Part shown: piece by piece, positions 32,348-62,720 of the stretch
How positions within the stretch are numbered: the stretch's first letter is position 1
How the letters are laid out: every line of letters starts with the position of its first letter
NCBI GenBank assembly: GCA_016784965.1
Contig: JADHTQ010000012.1
Coordinates: 1-64,000, forward strand
From: Bacteriovoracaceae bacterium
Lineage (GTDB): Bacteria > Bdellovibrionota > Bacteriovoracia > Bacteriovoracales > Bacteriovoracaceae
DNA length: 64,000 nt
Direction of reading: 5' to 3'
Made by a program: the position numbers and the translations under genes
Notes under the pieces: model-generated
Seen by the model: the letters and a program-made list of their open reading frames with translations, nothing else
Database searches by the model: none
What the model was told of the DNA's origin: nothing

Positions 32348-32617
32348 TTGCATTCTCCAGAGTTTAAATATGCAGGTGACCTTAATAAAATTGTTGAAGC
32401 TGCTCTTGATAATTTAGGGCGAGATAAAAGCTTTTTATTAAACTCACTAAATGGTGGTAGAGAAAAAAAACTTCAGATAGATAATTTATCATTTTTTGAG
32501 TGGTACGAAATATGCCAAATTCTCTATTTACCCCTGGATTGTATTTCTTTTGGATATAGTAAATCTATGCACGATGCAAATATTATAAAAGCTAGGGGCA
32601 AAAAGGCACCCAGTTAA
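32348..32617 (+). CDS. Small protein, possibly a degenerate HTH
   Basis: This 89-residue frame begins with TTG just after the EI24 gene, with AGGT seven bases upstream in the end of that gene. It contains 'LSFFEWYEICQILYLPLDCISFGY', which resembles the last helices of Cro/CI-type HTH proteins. The next small gene ends with a similar pattern. No recognition helix is obvious and no family is recognised. Coupling to the upstream gene supports expression. Confidence 0.5.
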   Translation: MHSPEFKYAGDLNKIVEAALDNLGRDKSFLLNSLNGGREKKLQIDNLSFFEWYEICQILYLPLDCISFGYSKSMHDANIIKARGKKAPS

Positions 32618-32655
32618 GAATTCTTAACCGCAAAACCCGCAAACTTAACTGTTAA
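32613..32655. promoter_or_regulatory. Twin palindromes, candidate operator
   Basis: A perfect 16-base palindrome (GTTAAGAATTCTTAAC, 32613-32628) is followed 16 bases later by TTAACTGTTAA (32645-32655), which repeats its GTTAA half-sites. They lie 70-110 bases upstream of a small HTH-like gene, where a promoter would sit, so they may be binding sites for that protein. No regulator has been linked to them. Confidence 0.4.
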
Positions 32656-32723
32656 ATAATAAATTTTTATGGGACAATTGTGCTATGCGTCAAAAGTTTA
32701 AGGATGCCTGGCTAGGAGGGTAT

Positions 32724-32936
32724 ATGAATGAGCAAATTTTTAATAGTAAGATGTGGAACAACCTAATGGTATTCCAGAGAGAGTACAATTTAAACAATGA
32801 ATCTATGGCCTCCCACTTATTATTAGAACCAAATGATTTTATAGAAAAGAGGGATAAAAATGACTCTTTGCCACTTGTTGCCGTTATTGCATTTTGTAAA
32901 AAGTTTAATCTATCCTTAAAGAATATTATAAACTAA
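32724..32936 (+). CDS. Small XRE-like helix-turn-helix protein
   Basis: Of the in-frame ATGs, 32724 has GGAGGG just upstream, while 32685 has none, so the protein is 70 residues. 'LMVFQREYNLNNESMASHLLLEPNDFIEKRD' followed by 'VAVIAFCKKFNLSLKNIIN' fits the Cro/CI helix pattern, with a typical 'sLknII' end. It probably binds DNA, perhaps its own upstream palindromes. Its stop overlaps the convergent radical SAM gene. Confidence 0.6.
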   Translation: MNEQIFNSKMWNNLMVFQREYNLNNESMASHLLLEPNDFIEKRDKNDSLPLVAVIAFCKKFNLSLKNIIN

Positions 32937-34540
32937 GTAGCTTCCCAGTTATCCACCATCGAGGCGACGGCCTTTGCTCCTCCTTTTAGCAGTTGTGATA
33001 TTATTCTTTTTTTGAATTCTTTGGGTTTTATGTTTCCCATTAAGGATAACATATATGAGGAATCGTCGAAATCGGTGACAATGCCAAGTCGTTCGACTAA
33101 TTTGTTAAATTCAGCACATTCTGCAAACAGTTGAGGCACCGATTTACCATTTAAACTATACCCCAAATTATCCCAACTAGTTTTAGGTAGTAGAAAATCT
33201 AGGTTTTTATCAATCATGTTAAATAGATACTTTTTTCTATCAATCCCTTTTTCAAACTTAAAACCGTACTCTTCCATATTATGCCACCACTGTGACCAAG
33301 GGCTTAAAAATGGGGGTAAAATCATTACTGATCCATGAGTTGATCTTGAAAAAATATTTTTTATTAAATCATAAGTTTTATTTTTTGTATCATTAGTTTC
33401 AAAAGGAGATGGAATAATAAAAGATAGGGTAATAAAAATATTGTTCTCCATTGCTTTTTGGGCAGTACTAATAATGTGTGGGATGCTGATATTGTTTTTT
33501 TTATGTACTTTTTTTAAAAACTGCATATCACCAGACTCAATCCCATAAAAAATACTACACAATCCTGCTTGTCGGAGCATGGGGAAGTCTTGTGCATTTA
33601 CATTGTTCATGGAAGAAAAGATAGAAAAGTAGACCTTCAAATTTCTGTGAATAAGTTCTCTGCCTAAGGCAACAATAAATGGCCATGGTGGATTTGAACC
33701 AGATAACCGAAAGTAGTCAATCCCGTCTTCTTCGTGAAGCCTTTGTATTTCATCAACAACTGGCCCGAGGCTTCTTTGGCGTACGCCATGTCCACTAAAA
33801 TGGGAGTGAGAACAAAAAGAGCAGTTGTTAAAGCAACCTCTACTTTCATCAATGATTCTTATTTTATAAAAAGTGTCAATGGTGGGGTAAATATCTTTAT
33901 CGTAAGTGGGGAAGGGAATGGAGTCTAAGCTATCTTCAAAAACTCTTTTGGAGTTTAGAAAAAGAGGCAAGGAATTTATGTTACTTGAAAGTATTGATAA
34001 AATACTTTGTTCTGCCTCACCATGAATTATGTGGTCAAATGCATGAGAGTACTCTTTTAGGTAATCCCCTAAATATTGAACAGCAGGTCCTCCTGCCACT
34101 GTTATAACATTAGGGCAAGTGCTCTTAACTTCTTTTACCATCTTATTTATATGGTTAATTGCACTTCCCATCCATAACTTAAAGCCAATTAAAGTTATAT
34201 TTTCCTCTTTAATTTTTTGGATAAGATATTTTAATTTTTTGGCAATAAATTTTTTCTCTGCTTGTGCCTTACAGTGGCGGTATTTAGCAATCGCTTTCAA
34301 GTCTGGTTCTGCACAATTGTCTAAAGATGAAATGATGTCTAAAGAATAATCCTTCTCGGCATATTCCATGACACTGCCAAAGTCAAAAGGGTTTTGTAAA
34401 TCAATAATTTCAACGTTTATTCCCGATTGCCTTAAGACCCCTGCTAAAGTACCCAGTGAGTTATCAGGAATAAATGTATTGGTTGTCAATATTTGTCCAG
34501 AATAGTTGACGAGCAAAACCCTTTTGGTTACGGTATGCAC
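32933..34540 (-). CDS. B12-binding-type radical SAM protein
   Basis: The first 200 residues form a cobalamin-binding-like Rossmann domain ('TLAGVLRQSGINVEIID', 'ITLIGFKLWMGSAI', 'VITVAGGPAVQYL', 'HIIHGEAEQSI'). The radical SAM domain then carries the cluster motif CxxxCxxC (about residues 235-242, 'RGCFNNCSFC') and 'FYGIESGDMQFLKKVHK'. The 535-residue protein has a C-terminal extension of about 120 residues. GTG start at 34540, with GGAG seven bases upstream. Enzymes of this class methylate or rearrange unactivated carbons, often in natural products or RiPPs. It is divergent from the GNAT-like/YcaO genes. Substrate unknown. Confidence 0.85.
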   Translation of the reverse strand: MHTVTKRVLLVNYSGQILTTNTFIPDNSLGTLAGVLRQSGINVEIIDLQNPFDFGSVMEYAEKDYSLDIISSLDNCAEPDLKAIAKYRHCKAQAEKKFIAKKLKYLIQKIKEENITLIGFKLWMGSAINHINKMVKEVKSTCPNVITVAGGPAVQYLGDYLKEYSHAFDHIIHGEAEQSILSILSSNINSLPLFLNSKRVFEDSLDSIPFPTYDKDIYPTIDTFYKIRIIDESRGCFNNCSFCSHSHFSGHGVRQRSLGPVVDEIQRLHEEDGIDYFRLSGSNPPWPFIVALGRELIHRNLKVYFSIFSSMNNVNAQDFPMLRQAGLCSIFYGIESGDMQFLKKVHKKNNISIPHIISTAQKAMENNIFITLSFIIPSPFETNDTKNKTYDLIKNIFSRSTHGSVMILPPFLSPWSQWWHNMEEYGFKFEKGIDRKKYLFNMIDKNLDFLLPKTSWDNLGYSLNGKSVPQLFAECAEFNKLVERLGIVTDFDDSSYMLSLMGNIKPKEFKKRIISQLLKGGAKAVASMVDNWEAT

Positions 34541-34709
34541 GCTAAATCTCCATGTTTAAACGTTGATTGCTTGCTGTCAATTTTACGGCCTTTTTAATGG
34601 AGAATGAAAGTAAAGATAAGTTAATAATATTTAACTGGATTTAATTCAAAGAAAAGCAAATCATATATGAATAAATTTCTTGTTGGAATTTTGTTGGAAG
34701 GAAAGATTA

Positions 34710-35375
34710 ATGAAAGTGAGTGCATTGAAATTGAAGTCACCTGTCAAGCAATCAGAAGGTTCAGAAAAACTATCAACTGACTTGTGGGATTTAAATTGGC
34801 AAGAGCATCTTCCTATTACAATACCTTTGAGTACAGGAGGTACTGCTGATTTTAAGTCGTGTAGTTCACATGTTGCATTTGAATTTTTGAAAAAAAATTA
34901 TGATCAGTTATTTACTGAAAATGAAAAGCATTCGAGCTTTTTATTTACAGATGGGCATCCTGCTAAATTTGATTTTTACAGTAGATGTTGTGATGTATTT
35001 TGTTACTCAATAAAAGGTACAACGATTGGTATACTGGTTGCAAATCCTGTTGACTGGAGCAGTTATTACATACGATACATTAATATCCTTCCAGCTTATA
35101 GAGGTAATAAGTTATTTGAAGTGGCCTTGCAATGTATTTTAGATCTACTGTCTGACCATGATCTAAAAAGGGTTACAATAGAGGTTTCACCATCAAACCT
35201 ATATCAAATCCAGAGATTGACCAGATTAAATTTTAACATTACAGGGACCTCTAATTCAGAGAGGTGGGGAGCACTTTTACAGTTAACAAAATTTCTTGAT
35301 GAAACTCATGAAAGTTCTTTTTTACAACATTTTTGTGTGGGACCTAGGCCACAGTTGATAAATAATTTACACTGA
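34710..35375 (+). CDS. GNAT-fold acetyltransferase-like protein with N-terminal extension
   Basis: Residues about 120-200 have a GNAT core: 'YYIRYINILPAYRGNKLFEVALQCIL' includes the R.GN.L acetyl-CoA loop, followed by 'VTIEVSPSNLYQIQRLTRLNF', the usual beta5/alpha4 segment. The first 60 residues are polar, with no known domain, and include a Gly-Gly at residues 54-55. The ATG at 34710 has GGAAGGAAAG upstream; an in-frame start at 34680 is less likely. A micro-ORF and ycaO follow on the same strand, so it may acetylate a peptide product or an enzyme. No substrate evidence. Confidence 0.65.
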   Translation: MKVSALKLKSPVKQSEGSEKLSTDLWDLNWQEHLPITIPLSTGGTADFKSCSSHVAFEFLKKNYDQLFTENEKHSSFLFTDGHPAKFDFYSRCCDVFCYSIKGTTIGILVANPVDWSSYYIRYINILPAYRGNKLFEVALQCILDLLSDHDLKRVTIEVSPSNLYQIQRLTRLNFNITGTSNSERWGALLQLTKFLDETHESSFLQHFCVGPRPQLINNLH

Positions 35376-35391
35376 TACAAGGAGGTATGAG

Positions 35392-35424
35392 ATGAAGAAA
35401 AAATTCGCATTGTTATCATTTTAG
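35392..35424 (+). CDS. Ten-codon micro-ORF with a strong ribosome binding site
   Basis: ATG at 35392 is preceded by AAGGAGGT at six-base spacing, the best Shine-Dalgarno in this region. It encodes MKKKFALLSF and then a stop. A strong hairpin follows eight bases later, then the YcaO gene. It could be a leader peptide controlling ycaO through the hairpin, a very small peptide substrate or signal, or the remains of a longer gene. Translation is likely from the signal; function is unknown. Confidence 0.45.
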   Translation: MKKKFALLSF

Positions 35425-35431
35425 AAAAAAC

Positions 35432-35464
35432 GATGCTTACTTTTTATAAAAAAAAGTAAGCATC
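35432..35464. terminator. Perfect 14-bp hairpin between micro-ORF and ycaO
   Basis: GATGCTTACTTTTT (35432-35445) pairs perfectly with its complement at 35451-35464 around a five-base loop. An A-run lies before the stem, but no T-run follows on the plus strand. It is 43 bases upstream of the ycaO start. It could be a terminator/attenuator or an mRNA-stabilising element. Confidence 0.55.
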
Positions 35465-35506
35465 AACAACTTTATTAAATTAATTCCACTATCCAAGAGA
35501 TGCCCT

Positions 35507-36532
35507 ATGATAGAAAGTTGTATATTTGAAAATGAAAACCTTGTTACTTCTGCAAATTGGAGCAGGCCAGAGTTTTTTGAGGATTGTTTGGAAATAGATG
35601 ATCTGGTTATAAAACTTGCTGGTATCTCTACAAAAGCAGATTGTGGCCAGATCCTCACAGGTAGTGCCGGAGATATTCATGAAATTCCAAAACAGAGAAG
35701 TTTTTTAGAATTGCTGGAGAGAATTGCAACATTTGAGGCAATCACAAGTGATAAACATTACCAAGTGATTGATCAAAACGGCCGACAACTGACAAAGGTT
35801 GCAAAAGACGATCTGTTTTTTATAAATAGTAACAAAGATTGGAGTTATTCAAAGTCAAATGGAATTGCTTTACATTTTAATTATTATGAAGCTTGTCAAA
35901 GTGCTAAGTATGAACTAATTGAAAGAGATAGAATCCTGAGGTCTTGGTATGGCCAATATGCTCCTGAAAAGATTGAATTAAATTTAAACCAGTCAAATGC
36001 CCTTTGCCCTCAGTTTCAAAGTAATTATTACGACTTTGAGTATTATCGTTTTGTCAATAATATGGATGAGAGTGAGGTCTGTGTGGTAGGTATGTTTGCC
36101 TTTGCTAAAAACGATGATCTAAGTCCTCTCGTTTATGGTTTTGGCGCACATGTTAAGTTTACTGAGGCAGTTGAACATGCCCAAAGAGAATGCTTTCAAC
36201 GATTAGGATTTTTATGGGGGGAAGATTTTAGTAGTCAGTTACCATCTTTTTCACCGACTCCAGATTATAATCAAGAATATTTTCTAAGAAAAAACAATCA
36301 TTGCTTAATTAGAAATTGGTTGGCAGCAACACACAAAAATATTGGGAGTTTTGTCACAGATTTTAGTAAGGAAAATATTGTTTATGTTGATCTTACCCCA
36401 AAGCGCTATAAGGGGAGCTATGTAGTAGTGAAGGCAATTTCAGACAAAAGAGTTCCTTTGATATTTGGCAGAAGATATGAAGTTTTTGGAAATCAGATAC
36501 CAAAAGAATTAATGATTCACCCGGTTGTCTAA
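35507..36532 (+). CDS. YcaO-domain protein
   Basis: YcaO enzymes use ATP to activate peptide backbone amides, forming azolines, thioamides or amidines. The ATP-site motifs are visible: 'RSFLELLERIATFEA' (about 64-78), 'SNGIALHFNYYEACQSAKYELIERD' in two parts (117-141, with the ElxER pattern) and 'AVEHAQRECFQRL' (about 222-234). 'VYVDLTP' and 'YVVVKAIS' near residue 295 match the family's C-terminal core. At 341 residues it is compact and lacks the PxPxP tail of many azoline cyclases. No TfuA or E1-like partner is nearby. The weak ribosome site suggests coupling or attenuation. It overlaps the response regulator gene by 24 bases (convergent). Confidence 0.85.
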   Translation: MIESCIFENENLVTSANWSRPEFFEDCLEIDDLVIKLAGISTKADCGQILTGSAGDIHEIPKQRSFLELLERIATFEAITSDKHYQVIDQNGRQLTKVAKDDLFFINSNKDWSYSKSNGIALHFNYYEACQSAKYELIERDRILRSWYGQYAPEKIELNLNQSNALCPQFQSNYYDFEYYRFVNNMDESEVCVVGMFAFAKNDDLSPLVYGFGAHVKFTEAVEHAQRECFQRLGFLWGEDFSSQLPSFSPTPDYNQEYFLRKNNHCLIRNWLAATHKNIGSFVTDFSKENIVYVDLTPKRYKGSYVVVKAISDKRVPLIFGRRYEVFGNQIPKELMIHPVV

Positions 36533-37189
36533 CAAAAACCACTTTCCAGGCTCTTTGCATTCAATCAATAGACCATATGGTTTAATTTTTCTTCTTAGGT
36601 TGTGAAGATGGACGTCAACAGTTTTGGGTAGTACGGTAGTTTGTCCCCATACTTTTTGTAATAGATCCTCTCTGGTTACACATTCATCGTGCTTTTCTAC
36701 AAATAATGACAGAATATTTATCTCTTTTAGAGTTAACTCAATCTGATCTAAACAGTAAGTAGTAATATCTTTTTTACTTGCATTGTAAGTTGGTGTCCTT
36801 GCTTGCAGTGCTTGTTCAACCTTGACAATAAGTTCTGATTTTTTAAATGGTTTTAAAAGGTAATCAAAGCTTCCTTCACTATAACAAAAACGCATAACAT
36901 CCATATCTTCTAGAAAAGAAACAACAATGAAGGGGGTTTTGCCAAAAAGTGGAGCTGTTTTTTGCTCAGAGAGATATTCTAAAAAATTGCCGTCTTCTAA
37001 GCATAGGTCTGCAATTATAAGATTTGGTAAAATTGTTGTGTCCTGTAATGCCTCCCTAAATGAGCTGATTTTTTTGAAATAACTTGTATGATATCTCACT
37101 GCAAGTGTTGTCCGATATATAAAAAGATATGCGGGATCATCTTCTAGAATCCAGATAGTCATCTCTTTATCGATAAATTTTGCATCCAT
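36509..37189 (-). CDS. OmpR/PhoB-family response regulator
   Basis: The receiver domain has acidic residues D17/D18, the phosphorylation site D61 ('LIIADLCLEDGNFL'), S91 and K113 ('LLKPFKK'). The C-terminal winged helix has 'LTLKEINILSLFV', 'VTREDLLQKVWG' and 'KTVDVHLHNLRRKIKP', typical of DNA-binding OmpR proteins. It lies 49 bases downstream of the histidine kinase gene, with which it should form one operon. Its 3' end overlaps that of ycaO, so the two transcripts are antisense at their ends. Confidence 0.93.
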   Translation of the reverse strand: MDAKFIDKEMTIWILEDDPAYLFIYRTTLAVRYHTSYFKKISSFREALQDTTILPNLIIADLCLEDGNFLEYLSEQKTAPLFGKTPFIVVSFLEDMDVMRFCYSEGSFDYLLKPFKKSELIVKVEQALQARTPTYNASKKDITTYCLDQIELTLKEINILSLFVEKHDECVTREDLLQKVWGQTTVLPKTVDVHLHNLRRKIKPYGLLIECKEPGKWFLLDNRVNH

Positions 37190-37238
37190 GGCTTATCCTC
37201 TTATATGCAATAAATTATATGACAATAATCATATTTGA

Positions 37239-38861
37239 TCAACTATGAACTCGCAAAGATAGTTTGAATGTAGTGCCGAGATTTATATTGTTGTTAAAAA
37301 TAGTAAGCTCACCTTCATGTCTTTCAATTAGCCTTCTGGTTAACCTCAGTCCAAGACCTTTTCGAAATGATTTTTGATCTTTGTGGATTAGTTTATAATT
37401 CGTTAATTCTTCAAAAGTCTGATTGGTAAGGCCACTACCGTTATCTTGAATTAATATGGAAAGATAGTTGTTTTCTTCATTGAAAATAAGTGTTTTTATC
37501 AAAGGATTCTCTACTTTGTGATCTAGAAGGTTGGTGACACTATTTTTGTAAAGGTTATAAAGTACATGAACTAGGCTCATTTGATCGATATTTAATTGAT
37601 ATCTACCAAGTTTATCGTCAAGTACAAATGCAATTTGTTCAAAGTCCGACTTTAAAAACTGACCTTTCAGTAGAGTCTTGACGTATTCTTGAACAGTAAT
37701 GATGTTGCAAATGACGTCATCTTGTTTTATAGGATTTTTAAGGTATGCTCGTAGAGACTCAATGAGTTCAACTGCTCGGTTAGTATTAATTAACATTTGT
37801 TGCATATATTCTGGATCTAAAGCAGTTTGTGGATTATCATTGATACCTTCAACGCAAAATTGGAGGGCATTAAGTGGTGCGACTAGGTCGTGAGCAATCA
37901 ATCCCGAAATTTCACCAAATTCACGTATATTACTCTGCTCAGTCTCATAGATGGCCCATTGTTTAATCTCCTTTTCTCTTAGCTGTAGTGTGCTGCTTAG
38001 GCTGTTAAAAGTATTTTCAAACTTTGCCAGAAGTGAGGAGGTGTGTATGGGTAAGATTTTTGGTTCTCTACTGTACTCTAAAGAGTCGAATGTGTTAAAT
38101 ATATTTTCCAATCCTCCAAGAAAGTAAGTTCTATTTAAATAGTAAAGTCTACCAAGACATACCAGGCCTGGTATCAAGACTCCCAGTGTTTTCCAATTCT
38201 TATACTGAGCAATTGTTTGCTGGTCATAATTGGCAACAAATACAAGAATTACTATGGAAATTGTTAATGATAAAAGGGCAATAGACTCCTGTCTGAAAAA
38301 ATCTTGACGTTGGCCGATAATTTGTGTTTGTTCAAAAGCTTGTTGCCAGTTTAGTTTCTGATGCCATTGTTCAATCTTTTTTGATGCAAAGTTGTGTGTT
38401 TCAATAAAAACTATTCCCGAAAAAAAAGATAGGATTAAAAACTCCATTGACCAAAACTTTACCCATAGCTGAAGATAGTCAGTATGATTATATTCCCAAA
38501 AATATACCACAACGATACCTGCTGGAATGACCTTTACTAAATTGGCAATAAAAATATACAATGATCTTCTGCGGGGAAAGAGGGAGAGGCTTATCAATAA
38601 TTGCTTAACCCTAGGCGTGTCTAATTCTGCTATAATGTCATCTTTGATAATTGGAAAATATGCTTTGCAGTCAGGAAACATTTTCTTGTACAACTTCATG
38701 TCTACTAGATGATGAATTGCCAAAAATGCTAAAAAATCGACAAAAACCATAATGAGTAACTCTAAAATACTTGGTTCAAATAGGACAACAAACATAATGA
38801 TGCCATTAGTGGCAAAAATTGCAATACTGTTAGTTGACATAACGTTTACAAAATTTTTCAT
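37239..38861 (-). CDS. Membrane sensor histidine kinase
   Basis: The 540-residue protein has about six hydrophobic segments in the first 260 residues, a linker, a dimerisation domain with phospho-acceptor His near residue 323 ('LIAHDLVAPLNALQF'), and a HATPase_c domain ('NLYKNSVTN', 'IQDNGSGLT', 'GLGLRLTRRLIERHEG'). No periplasmic loop is large, so it may sense a membrane or membrane-passing signal. GGAG precedes the ATG. It is upstream of its response regulator and divergent from the second radical SAM gene. Confidence 0.93.
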   Translation of the reverse strand: MKNFVNVMSTNSIAIFATNGIIMFVVLFEPSILELLIMVFVDFLAFLAIHHLVDMKLYKKMFPDCKAYFPIIKDDIIAELDTPRVKQLLISLSLFPRRRSLYIFIANLVKVIPAGIVVVYFWEYNHTDYLQLWVKFWSMEFLILSFFSGIVFIETHNFASKKIEQWHQKLNWQQAFEQTQIIGQRQDFFRQESIALLSLTISIVILVFVANYDQQTIAQYKNWKTLGVLIPGLVCLGRLYYLNRTYFLGGLENIFNTFDSLEYSREPKILPIHTSSLLAKFENTFNSLSSTLQLREKEIKQWAIYETEQSNIREFGEISGLIAHDLVAPLNALQFCVEGINDNPQTALDPEYMQQMLINTNRAVELIESLRAYLKNPIKQDDVICNIITVQEYVKTLLKGQFLKSDFEQIAFVLDDKLGRYQLNIDQMSLVHVLYNLYKNSVTNLLDHKVENPLIKTLIFNEENNYLSILIQDNGSGLTNQTFEELTNYKLIHKDQKSFRKGLGLRLTRRLIERHEGELTIFNNNINLGTTFKLSLRVHS

Positions 38862-38915
38862 ATTGCTCCATTTTAAGTTTGTTTTTCTTAACTTTACATA
38901 TAGTACCAGTAGTTG

Positions 38916-38938
38916 GGTATACTTAATATACTAATACC
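38916..38938. promoter_or_regulatory. Nested palindrome between kinase and radical SAM genes
   Basis: GGTAT (38916) pairs with ATACC (38934), and inside it GTATA (38917) pairs with TATAC (38927). The site is in the 107-base divergent intergenic region, 55 bases from the kinase start and 31 bases from the radical SAM start. It could be an operator for the neighbouring response regulator. Confidence 0.35.
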
Positions 38939-38968
38939 GACTTAAACATGGAAGCTTTCGGAGGACAT

Positions 38969-40384
38969 ATGTCAAAAATATTTTTTATAAAACCCGACTC
39001 ACCACTACCCGTAGATTTAAAAGTACCACCGCTTGGAATGCTCTATATCGCATCGGCCTTGCGCAAAAGGAACAAGGGACATGAGGTTACTTTGCTAGAT
39101 ATGAAAGAGAAAAAAGTAAGTGTGCAAAGTGTAGTTGATAAGATTTTAGAGTTTAAAACTGATGTCGTGGGGATAGGCTGTATGACGAGCGAGTACCCTA
39201 CTGTTGAGAAGCTGGTGCGTGAAATTAAAAGCAGAGACCAAAAGATTATTACAGTTATCGGAGGACCACATATTGTTCTAAGTCCTACGGGGCCACTGTC
39301 AAATGCGGACATTGACTATGTTATTGCAGGAGAGGGAGAGGAGACTTTTCCAGAATTAGTAGAGGCATTGGAAGCGGGCAAAGATCCGAGCGGAGTACAA
39401 GGTATCGGATTTAATTTAAATGGAGAGGTAATATTAACTGCAACTCGCCCATATATTGAAGATCTCGATCAGCTTAGTTTTCCAGCTTGGGATTTAATTG
39501 ATCTTGAAGATTACTATAAAGTTCCACTTTCCCATAAGATGCTTACTGTCGATTCACGGTTTATGACCATCTTTACTTCTCGTGGTTGCCCATATCAGTG
39601 TGCATATTGTTTTAAAGTTTTTGGCAAGAAGGCAAGGCTTAGATCTGCCCAGAATGTATTTGAAGAGATGCAGACCCTTAATCGACGCTATGGAATTAGT
39701 AATTTTATCATAATAGATGATGTGTTTAATATCAATCCACAAAGAGTTGAGTCACTGTGTGACCTAATCATAAGTAGTAGTTTGCAGCCGAAATTGGCCT
39801 TTCTGGGTGGGTTTCGCGGTGATATAGTCACAGAGAGATTGATCAAAAGGTTAAAAGAAGTTGGTACCTACAATATTAGTTATGCAATTGAAACTTCTTC
39901 TATGCGACTTCAAAAAGTTATTAAAAAAAATGCAAAAGTTGCAAGGTTAAAGGAAGTAATTGCTTATACAAATAAATTGGGAATATTTACCACAGGCTTT
40001 TTTATGATGGGCCTACCAACAGAAACATTGGGAGAAGTAAAGGATAATATTCATTACGCTTTATCCAGTAAATTAAACTTGGTCATCTTCTCTATTTTAA
40101 CTCCATTTCCAGGAACACAAATGTATGACGATCTAAAACGTGATGGTTATAAAATTGATAGCAAGCATGAAAATATTAGTTTTTATAAACCGACTGTTAC
40201 CACCAATGAATTGGGGGCAAAGCGCATTCACTTGATGCTGACTTTTGCATACTTCAGGCTGCTACTAAATCCTCGCCGAATTATCAATACTTTTTTGATT
40301 TTACCCAAAAGACGAAAAATATTTTCATTCCTCTATTTTTATTTTAAACGTCTAAGAATATCTGTTGCAGGTATCATAAATTAA
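38969..40384 (+). CDS. Second B12-binding-type radical SAM protein
   Basis: GGAGGA lies just before ATG 38969, so this start is preferred to an ATG 21 bases earlier. The N-terminal B12-binding domain ('PPLGMLYIASALRKR', 'VVGIGCMTSEYPTVEKL', 'VIGGPHIVLSPTG', 'DYVIAGEGEETFPELVEAL') is typical of the BchE/hopanoid-methylase-like class. The cluster motif CxxxCxxC is at about 207-214 ('SRGCPYQCAYC'). The C-terminus has two basic/hydrophobic segments that may touch the membrane. It is about 471 residues. It differs from the radical SAM protein at 32933-34540 in its C-terminal part. Substrate unknown; a role together with the YcaO locus is only suggested by proximity. Confidence 0.88.
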   Translation: MSKIFFIKPDSPLPVDLKVPPLGMLYIASALRKRNKGHEVTLLDMKEKKVSVQSVVDKILEFKTDVVGIGCMTSEYPTVEKLVREIKSRDQKIITVIGGPHIVLSPTGPLSNADIDYVIAGEGEETFPELVEALEAGKDPSGVQGIGFNLNGEVILTATRPYIEDLDQLSFPAWDLIDLEDYYKVPLSHKMLTVDSRFMTIFTSRGCPYQCAYCFKVFGKKARLRSAQNVFEEMQTLNRRYGISNFIIIDDVFNINPQRVESLCDLIISSSLQPKLAFLGGFRGDIVTERLIKRLKEVGTYNISYAIETSSMRLQKVIKKNAKVARLKEVIAYTNKLGIFTTGFFMMGLPTETLGEVKDNIHYALSSKLNLVIFSILTPFPGTQMYDDLKRDGYKIDSKHENISFYKPTVTTNELGAKRIHLMLTFAYFRLLLNPRRIINTFLILPKRRKIFSFLYFYFKRLRISVAGIIN

Positions 40385-60875: not shown

Positions 60876-62720
60876 ATGAAGAGCATTACGAAATTGTGCA
60901 GCGTGTTTGCTGTTTTGGTTTTTATTTTTTTGGCCATGAATGTGTCAGGTACCGACACACTAGAAAATGAAGAAAAAGACTTTTTGTATGAGGGACAGAT
61001 AACACAAAACTTTGTGTTAGAAAATGTATTAACACAAACTCGTTATAGGGATGAAGAGATTGATGATACATGCACTCGTGAAGTACCTTATACCGAAGAA
61101 GTGTGTGATTATCAAACTAGTTATAGGAGTGAATGCCGGGATATTCCAGGTCAGCAAGTGTGCGACGATGTCCCTTATCAAGAATGTACAGATGTAACCA
61201 GGTATAGACGAGAATGTAGTGAGGGCCCATCAACCAGGGAGTGTCACCGCGAACCAGATAGAGAAGTTTGTCATAATGAACCAGATCGTAGGGAGTGTAG
61301 TACAGGGCCATCGACCAGGCAGTGTCACCGTGAAGCAGATAGACAAGAGTGTAGCCGAGCTCCAGGAAGGCAAGTTTGTCGCGATAAACCTGCTCGTGAA
61401 GTCTGTGAAACAAAACCAGCGCAAAGAGTATGTGAGCAGATAAACGGCAGAAGAGTCTGTAGAAGGATTCCAGGGGAGAGAGTCTGCAGGACTGTACCAG
61501 GTGAGAGAGTATGTACAACTGAGCCTGGGCAGAGGCAATGTAGGACGATACCAGGTGAGCGAGTTTGCAGAGATGTTCCAGGGCAAAGAGAGTGTAGAAC
61601 TATCCCGGGTGAGCGAGTTTGTACCACAGTTGTTGGACAAAGAGTCTGTAATGATGTTCCTGGAAGAAGAATTTGCCAAAGAGTTCCATATACTGATCAA
61701 GAATGTACTACCCAGACCAGGGAAGAGTGTAGCTGGCTACCAGGAAGAGAAGTTTGTGAAGATGTACCCTACCAGGAGTATGTTTGCAATGATGAAACTC
61801 GCTATAAACCTGAAACCTATGCTTGTACTAGAACCATCCAAGTTCCCTATACTGTAGTTGTTAAAAAGCTTAGAGCTAATGTGCAATTTACTTTTGACAA
61901 TACTTTAGAAGATGTTGTGGTAGATTTTAAAGTCATACTTAATCGTGATGGAAGAGTTGAGGTATCTGCTGTGGACCAATCTGAAACAGCTGTGATTGTA
62001 CTTTTAGAGCAAACAATTGATGTAGTTTCAAGGCAGAATGAGGATCACATTAATGCAAAATTTGCTGTTTCTTTTGTCAACAAGGATAGAGTCTTGTCGC
62101 CACTATCAAAAGAAATTGAAGATGTGGACTTTAGCAGTGAGCAGCTCAAGTTTGCAATTGGCAAAGTTGAAAATCATAATCACCTAAGAGTAAAAGTTTC
62201 GATTAATAAAAGAGGGGAAGAGCTTTTTAGTAAGCTTTTAACTAGTGATGATTTTGTGCAGGAGTCTTCTGGTGATGAGTCGCAAGTTATAGTTTCTTTG
62301 AAAGAGGCAAACTTAGGAGAGTTAAAAGGAGCTTATGATATCACTATTGACCTAAAGGCTCACCTTGAAGGCAAGGTACTAAATGTTGATGCTGGTGAGC
62401 TAAAACTATCAAACAGCTTTAGAAAAAAGTTTCACACAGATAATACTCCAAATGTTGAAAAAGTTTTAATTCTGTCTAATCTTTCAATGGATGCGATTTT
62501 AATTTTTAGAAAGCTTGGCAGAGAGGCCACCAAGGAAATGATAAAAATTAAGGCCTCTGATCTTTTGTATGAAGCAGAAATTACCGGTTTTGTACAAGCT
62601 GTGAAGTTAAATACAGTTAATCATAGTATTATTTTAGAGCTAATAGTTACTCAAGATACAACAGATGCTCAATTAGAAGAAGCAATCAAACATGATTGGT
62701 ACGATATTACTATAATTTAA
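60876..62720 (+). CDS. Secreted protein with cysteine-ladder 9-residue repeats
   Basis: A signal peptide (about 1-25) is followed from about residue 65 to 325 by 28 cysteines spaced almost uniformly. Seventeen consecutive gaps are exactly nine residues. The clearest units read C-x-x-[IV]-P-G-[EQ]-R-V. The region is rich in Arg and Glu and has few hydrophobic residues. The last 280 residues are a different, cysteine-poor beta-rich domain, including a strand set starting 'LRANVQFTFDNTLEDV'. The Cys count is even, allowing full disulfide pairing. AAGGAG precedes the ATG. No homologous family recognised. Confidence 0.75.
   Translation: MKSITKLCSVFAVLVFIFLAMNVSGTDTLENEEKDFLYEGQITQNFVLENVLTQTRYRDEEIDDTCTREVPYTEEVCDYQTSYRSECRDIPGQQVCDDVPYQECTDVTRYRRECSEGPSTRECHREPDREVCHNEPDRRECSTGPSTRQCHREADRQECSRAPGRQVCRDKPAREVCETKPAQRVCEQINGRRVCRRIPGERVCRTVPGERVCTTEPGQRQCRTIPGERVCRDVPGQRECRTIPGERVCTTVVGQRVCNDVPGRRICQRVPYTDQECTTQTREECSWLPGREVCEDVPYQEYVCNDETRYKPETYACTRTIQVPYTVVVKKLRANVQFTFDNTLEDVVVDFKVILNRDGRVEVSAVDQSETAVIVLLEQTIDVVSRQNEDHINAKFAVSFVNKDRVLSPLSKEIEDVDFSSEQLKFAIGKVENHNHLRVKVSINKRGEELFSKLLTSDDFVQESSGDESQVIVSLKEANLGELKGAYDITIDLKAHLEGKVLNVDAGELKLSNSFRKKFHTDNTPNVEKVLILSNLSMDAILIFRKLGREATKEMIKIKASDLLYEAEITGFVQAVKLNTVNHSIILELIVTQDTTDAQLEEAIKHDWYDITII
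61452..61694 (+). repeat. 27-base tandem repeat coding for 9-residue Cys units
   Basis: Nine consecutive in-frame 27-base units encode R-x-C-x-x-x-P-G-x variants. Flanking units on both sides are more diverged, so the array probably grew by duplication in the middle. Confidence 0.85.

Follow-up and report, generated by a model that had tools for sequence, protein, structure and literature searches.

A conserved 10-codon mini-gene as the candidate precursor of a proposed YcaO-linked RiPP pathway in Bacteriovoracaceae

The locus raises the question of what its YcaO enzyme modifies, and with the help of which partners. The window, i.e., the whole stretch of 64,000 nucleotides analyzed here, belongs to the 4.59-Mb draft genome of a Bacteriovoracaceae bacterium, which its relatives likewise place in or near this family of Bdellovibrionota. 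A preliminary description had listed in it two B12-type radical SAM genes, a GNAT-like gene, a 10-codon ORF followed by a hairpin, a YcaO gene and a response regulator/histidine kinase pair, all of which were located in the window where that description had placed them. The Pfam domain scan covered nine window proteins. The locus comprises the following features:

32933-34540, minus strand: rSAM1, a B12-binding radical SAM enzyme (PF02310, E 7e-13; PF04055, E 1.3e-12), divergent from the GNAT operon
34621-34635, plus strand: candidate response-regulator box TTAA-N6-[CT]TAAC, upstream of GNAT
34710 (ATG)-35375, plus strand: GNAT-family N-acetyltransferase (PF00583, E 4e-6)
35392-35424, plus strand: mini-gene of 33 nt (10 codons and a stop), with the proposed precursor MKKKFALLSF
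35432-35464, plus strand: 14-bp hairpin (z -8.9), 3' of the mini-gene
35507-36532, plus strand: YcaO-domain enzyme of 341 aa (PF02624, E 2.7e-17), ATP-dependent and predicted to be peptide-modifying
36509-37189, minus strand: OmpR/PhoB-type response regulator (PF00072, PF00486), convergent with YcaO
37239-38861, minus strand: membrane histidine kinase (PF02518, PF00512)
38948 (or ATG 38969)-40384, plus strand: second B12/radical SAM gene, not part of the conserved unit

The response regulator gene overlaps the 3' end of the YcaO gene by 24 nt, and Rfam reports no RNA family in the window. Near the end of the window (60876-62720), a 614-aa protein contains an extended series of degenerate, Cys-rich repeats (..PGERVCRTVPGERVC..).

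The assignment of the enzyme to the YcaO superfamily is based on a PF02624 match above cut-off, on the conserved ATP/Mg residues and on the fold: the AlphaFold model has a pLDDT of 88.6 and its top fold matches are YcaO structures. Residues E68, E71, R72, E136, E139, R140, E228 and Q231 are invariant in 20 homologues, and the solved sequences closest to the profile include TruD, LynD, MusD and McbD, with the methanogen YcaO MJ1094 also matched. PxPxP is the C-terminal motif used as comparison for the classical azol(in)e enzymes; the window YcaO ends in IHPVV and not in PxPxP. The preliminary description held that a place in the stand-alone E. coli-type group would speak against a peptide substrate. 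In the YcaO tree, whose branches are long and whose forks are mostly unstarred, so that we used only the E. coli-type split, the window enzyme lies outside that clade with a support of 100. An E. coli-type YcaO, with about 590-770 aa, is present in most relatives; the window's genome has four YcaO matches, all of them outside this type. The absence of a TfuA gene, noticed earlier from the locus, extends to the whole genome, with no PF07812 match by a search which detects TfuA in Methanosarcina. No E1-like/ocin-ThiF or RRE partner is present among the nine window proteins or among the families conserved at the loci, and neither a protease nor an exporter is seen in the locus. Since none of these partners is seen, the pathway proposed below has to assume a YcaO acting independently, which counts against it.

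Comparing the neighborhood across genomes, many of which are draft metagenome assemblies, showed which genes belong together. Relatives of the YcaO reach 39% identity within the family, and a broader set lies at 26-37%; its profile finds a match in 16 of the 369 genomes of the window's phylum, and 7 of 379 genomes sampled from Myxococcota, the phylum of the Polyangiaceae locus L082, match as well. The genome-wide scan with this profile gave 23 loci, the weakest of which are other YcaO types. The conserved unit consists of GNAT, mini-gene and YcaO in the same direction, usually with the response regulator and the kinase (convergent with YcaO in Bdellovibrionota), and with either a B12-radical SAM or a heme-oxygenase-like (HO-like) enzyme. 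The clustering of the genes listed at the outset is non-random for GNAT, the 10-codon ORF, YcaO, response regulator and kinase, which recur together in many divergent relatives, and for rSAM1, found in four of them, but not for the second radical SAM gene, present at no other locus. Seen in the window only, the latter was dropped as a cluster member; its product is BchE-like (NCBIfam BchE, E 1e-57, below cut-off). The earlier proposal, in which YcaO belongs to a peptide-modifying system and the kinase/regulator pair is linked to it, is supported without this gene, given the gene order shared by relatives, a YcaO that is not of E. coli type and the absence of TfuA.

The 10-codon ORF, which the preliminary description gave merely as an item and with no substrate named, turned out to be conserved and is now the best substrate candidate. 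In the window it reads ATG AAG AAA AAA TTC GCA TTG TTA TCA TTT TAG, directly downstream of a strong AAGGAGGT-type ribosome site. We found 24 distinct mini-ORFs at YcaO loci of Bdellovibrionota and Myxococcota, almost always preceded by a purine-rich ribosome site, encoding (a leading V stands for a GTG start) MKKKFALLSF, MKKRYATLSF, MKKRYALVTW, MKKYGFVTV, MRKKYAHASM, MKKQFALICF, MKKRYATISF, MRRKFALYSF, MKKKFAQHCL, MKKKFAQISF, MKKFAQYCI, MKKKYAKICT, MKKKFAQLSF, MKKRFAQSCI, MKKRFALGTL, MKKRFALNCL, MKKFALGTL, VKKKFAHMSF, VKKKFACITF, MKIKFAAICF, MKKFAQMSF, MRKKFALACY, VKKFARTSL and MKKFATGTF. Their general form is M-[K/R]-[K/R]-([K/R/Q])-[F/Y]-A-x-x-[S/T/C]-hydrophobic-stop, with a total of 9-10 residues and a fixed spacing from the aromatic residue onward, [F/Y]-[A/G]-x-x-[S/T/C]-x-stop. 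The penultimate residue is Ser, Thr or Cys in all 24 peptides (10, 6 and 8, respectively), a rule only partly independent of the search because some seeds came from a pattern demanding S/T/C. Most peptides contain a single S/T/C, at this fixed place, and a separate leader is absent.

Several observations indicate that these short ORFs are genes. At core position 2 (Ala), pairwise codon differences affect the first, second and third positions in 0%, 8% and 71% of cases, as for a selected protein. The first five versions, that of the window among them, were spotted by eye and the others through pattern searches; a tail-free control pattern recovered the same 24 sites with no stray match in 1,125,848 bases on both strands, and Markov sequences gave 0.0015 matches per slot. 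A fixed pattern declared beforehand matched in four of four fresh Myxococcota loci, in three of them at the declared position upstream of YcaO; in the fourth, L118, the mini-gene is flanked by GNAT and the HO-like gene, downstream of YcaO. Overall, a mini-gene is present in 24 of the 27 YcaO loci with readable flanks. No mini-ORF was seen by eye in the three others (L077, L084, L088), where GNAT and the two alternative second enzymes are missing as well. The start of the mini-gene and the stop of GNAT share 4 nt in six loci (L020, L081, L098, L102, L117, L119), an arrangement typical of co-translated genes. Away from any YcaO match, the window's genome holds one further match to the pattern of a ribosome site followed by ATGAARAARNNNTWYGC (..ATGAAAAAAATATTTGC; L137, G000:C19:1985-2012).

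Taken together, a candidate ribosomal precursor gene is linked to modifying enzymes at 24 loci, a linkage which is one of the general features of RiPP systems. We propose, with a probability of roughly three in four, that these loci encode a minimal RiPP pathway, in which the 9-10-mer would be the entire precursor, modified by YcaO with its partner enzymes. From the gene content we infer that the mini-gene peptide is the substrate, as well as each of the chemical steps and the regulation by the kinase pair discussed below.

A strong ribosome site and a short ORF, with a stable hairpin right after it, are also the layout of a leader-peptide attenuator, and arrest peptides can show sequence conservation. 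According to such a scenario, ribosome stalling on MKKxFAxx[STC] would switch the hairpin and the genes downstream, and the YcaO substrate would be elsewhere. RNA folding of the hairpin downstream of the mini-gene gave a z below -2 at 18 of the 24 loci (mean z -3.3), but the hairpin is weak or absent in L075, L082 and L120, which argues against a switch. Furthermore, the peptide stays constant while the gene that follows it varies (YcaO in the window type, the HO-like gene mostly, and in L118 it is YcaO that precedes the mini-gene), and an interchange limited to S/T/C would suit the chemistry of an azoline-forming YcaO better than stalling. We consider attenuation quite improbable. The hairpin, conserved as a structure and not as a sequence, behaves as expected of a terminator yielding more precursor than enzyme message, and is likely a partial terminator or a 3' stabilizer.

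In the RiPP pathway that we favor, the 33-nt gene (35392-35424) would provide the complete precursor MKKKFALLSF without a long leader. As the peptide is too short for a leader beyond M-K-K-(K), its recognition would occur through the basic N-terminus and the [F/Y]-A motif. Azoline-forming YcaO enzymes act on Ser, Thr or Cys, and the exchange of these three residues at one fixed position, beside a YcaO with intact Glu/Arg/Gln motifs, is what such an enzyme would require. Most likely, YcaO would use ATP to cyclize the penultimate residue onto the preceding carbonyl, placing an azoline next to the C-terminal hydrophobic residue. YcaO enzymes also produce thioamides and amidines (PMC6511847, PMC8442711), and the match to MJ1094 would be in line with such a product on the 10-mer, a variant contained in the probability given above for the main reading. 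It appears unlikely, given that TfuA is absent from the genome and that a strict S/T/C position favors attack by the side chain.

A second modification, probably oxidative, would be carried out by the B12-radical SAM enzyme in the window and by an HO-like enzyme in most relatives. The HO-like gene usually sits between the mini-gene and YcaO and encodes 220-240 aa that match Haem_oxygenas_2 weakly, under the Pfam cut-off; His/Glu/Asp motifs are recognizable by eye and the enzyme is probably diiron. The window-type loci with rSAM1 (window, L017, L018, L095, L100) lack the HO-like gene. Counted per locus, shared descent being ignored, rSAM1 occurs in 5 and the HO-like gene in 18, never together, and L117 has neither. 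This either/or distribution suggests that the two perform one oxidation, with or without O2. BchE and AcsF are known to substitute for each other in chlorophyll synthesis, and the clusters described here would provide a comparable natural pair, with a heme-oxygenase-like enzyme and a B12-radical SAM enzyme apparently replacing each other.

The third enzyme, GNAT, likely acetylates, judging from its AlphaFold model (pLDDT 86.7). Its structural matches, including PatZ/PAT, PaiA, RimI, RimJ and RimL, are protein, N-alpha and small-molecule acetyltransferases with similar scores; in the proposed pathway, the peptide would be acetylated probably at its N-terminus or at a Lys. Strong GNAT orthologues are restricted to genomes having a YcaO of the family described here, and the stand-alone, weaker GNAT paralogues of Bdellovibrio-like genomes have no adjoining mini-ORF. 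In L100, a different acetyltransferase-like ORF, recognized by eye, occupies the GNAT position, which speaks for acetylation being required. The C-terminal tail of GNAT, which displays an FC motif (..HFCVGPRPQLINNLH, ..QFCL), was considered as a fused core peptide and rejected, the motif being absent in L105, L102, L117 and L118.

The operon would be controlled by the convergent kinase and response regulator. Orthologues of the regulator adjoin YcaO in L017, L018, L020, L095-L097, L099, L100, L102, L103 and L105, and a TTAA-N6-YTAAC box precedes GNAT in six loci (window, L018, L020, L095, L101, L104), with about 10 to 15 matches elsewhere in 802 kb on both strands; this candidate box fits control by an OmpR-type regulator. 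Further sequence elements lie nearby: two small ORFs (89 and 83 aa) with no family match at 32348-32936, ahead of the cluster, a palindromic TTAAGAATTCTTAAC at 32614-32628 matching the pattern of the GNAT promoter box, and two 11-nt direct repeats, TTGTTGGAA(TT/GG), at 34683-34704, just 5' of the GNAT start. Hydropathy of 13 orthologues gave the kinase up to six membrane segments (fewer were called in some, that of the window included) and no large outside domain, so that it could sense the peptide or something in the membrane. Some peptide-sensing kinases have the same architecture, and GNAT and the mini-gene adjoin nearly always; from this, the peptide might be a signal activating the kinase, unmodified or only acetylated, with YcaO acting on a protein or a small molecule. 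Such a signal would leave the penultimate S/T/C rule unaccounted for, as well as the joint loss of the mini-gene and its partners where YcaO stands alone. Moreover, the Polyangiaceae carry a different, co-directional kinase of ~1,800 aa, a Ser/Thr-kinase/GAF hybrid whose L082 copy comprises Ser/Thr kinase, AAA, GAF, histidine kinase and receiver domains. We thus regard this possibility as very improbable.

How does the YcaO-modified 9-10-mer compare with known systems? The closest parallels differ in different ways. In the thiovarsolin cluster (YcaO-TfuA-VarO, PMC6511847), a YcaO and an HO-like enzyme, VarO, tied to dehydrogenation, also act on a short ribosomal peptide, and the end product is N-acetylated; that cluster has a long repeating precursor, TfuA, an ATP-grasp ligase and a transporter, whereas the present loci have a precursor of 9-10 residues, no TfuA and their own GNAT and kinase pair, with a B12-radical SAM replacing the HO-like enzyme in the window. 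Biarylitides (PMC13417212, PMC12951456) share a precursor too short for gene finders, the five-residue product of the 18-bp gene bytA, which adjoins its modifying enzyme; that enzyme is a cross-linking cytochrome P450, in contrast to the YcaO, GNAT and HO-like or B12-radical SAM enzymes found here, and the window locus has no P450 and a precursor of 9-10 and not five residues. RiPPs with a stand-alone YcaO of the streptamidine type (PMC8442711) similarly combine a YcaO without a fused partner and a nearby precursor, but one of 31-89 residues without S/T/C-rich regions, with other partners and in Actinobacteria and Firmicutes. As for the classical azol(in)e enzymes (TruD, LynD, MusD, McbD), they have in common with ours the YcaO fold and an S/T/C in the peptide, but require an E1-like or RRE partner and a leader peptide, neither of which is seen here: the locus has no E1-like/ocin-ThiF/RRE partner and no precursor made of a leader and a Cys/Ser/Thr core. 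The thioamide class is defined by a TfuA partner, which the window's genome does not have. With the defining features of the named classes tested absent, we file the system, on its gene content, as a putative RiPP variant outside them. A search of the literature on YcaO enzymes with very short or leaderless precursors, HO-like partners, myxobacteria or Bdellovibrio, in which subscription journals were thinly covered, retrieved no description of it.

The same genome contains three YcaO loci of another type (L005, 641-6322; L006, 7362-12307; L007, 7434-12347), with similar ones in L022 and L024. Their gene order is a small protein (about 60-130 aa), an SBP_bac_5 binding protein, YcaO, sometimes a nitroreductase, and a histidine kinase with a receiver-like C-terminus; the small protein is hydrophobic at its N-terminus and, in some cases, ends in a short tail with Cys. 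These loci look like a second YcaO peptide or sensing system in the family.

If the proposed pathway is true, it would constitute an undescribed RiPP class whose precursors, with 9-10 residues, are among the shortest known and far below the 31-89 residues of another YcaO-linked precursor family (PMC8442711), which would explain why such clusters were missed. It would also supply an enzyme and a substrate that can be tested directly, one YcaO with a synthetic 10-mer. More tentatively, and we hold this to be possible if doubtful, the modified 9-10-mer may serve predatory-type bacteria as a secreted pheromone: YcaO and GNAT would mature it together with either the O2-dependent HO-like enzyme or the B12-radical SAM enzyme, the two being interchangeable, and the membrane kinase would be its dedicated receptor. 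In that case, the locus would encode a complete signaling system based on a modified peptide, with a precursor too small for gene finders to detect, which hints at a possible use of such peptides as signals by predatory bacteria.
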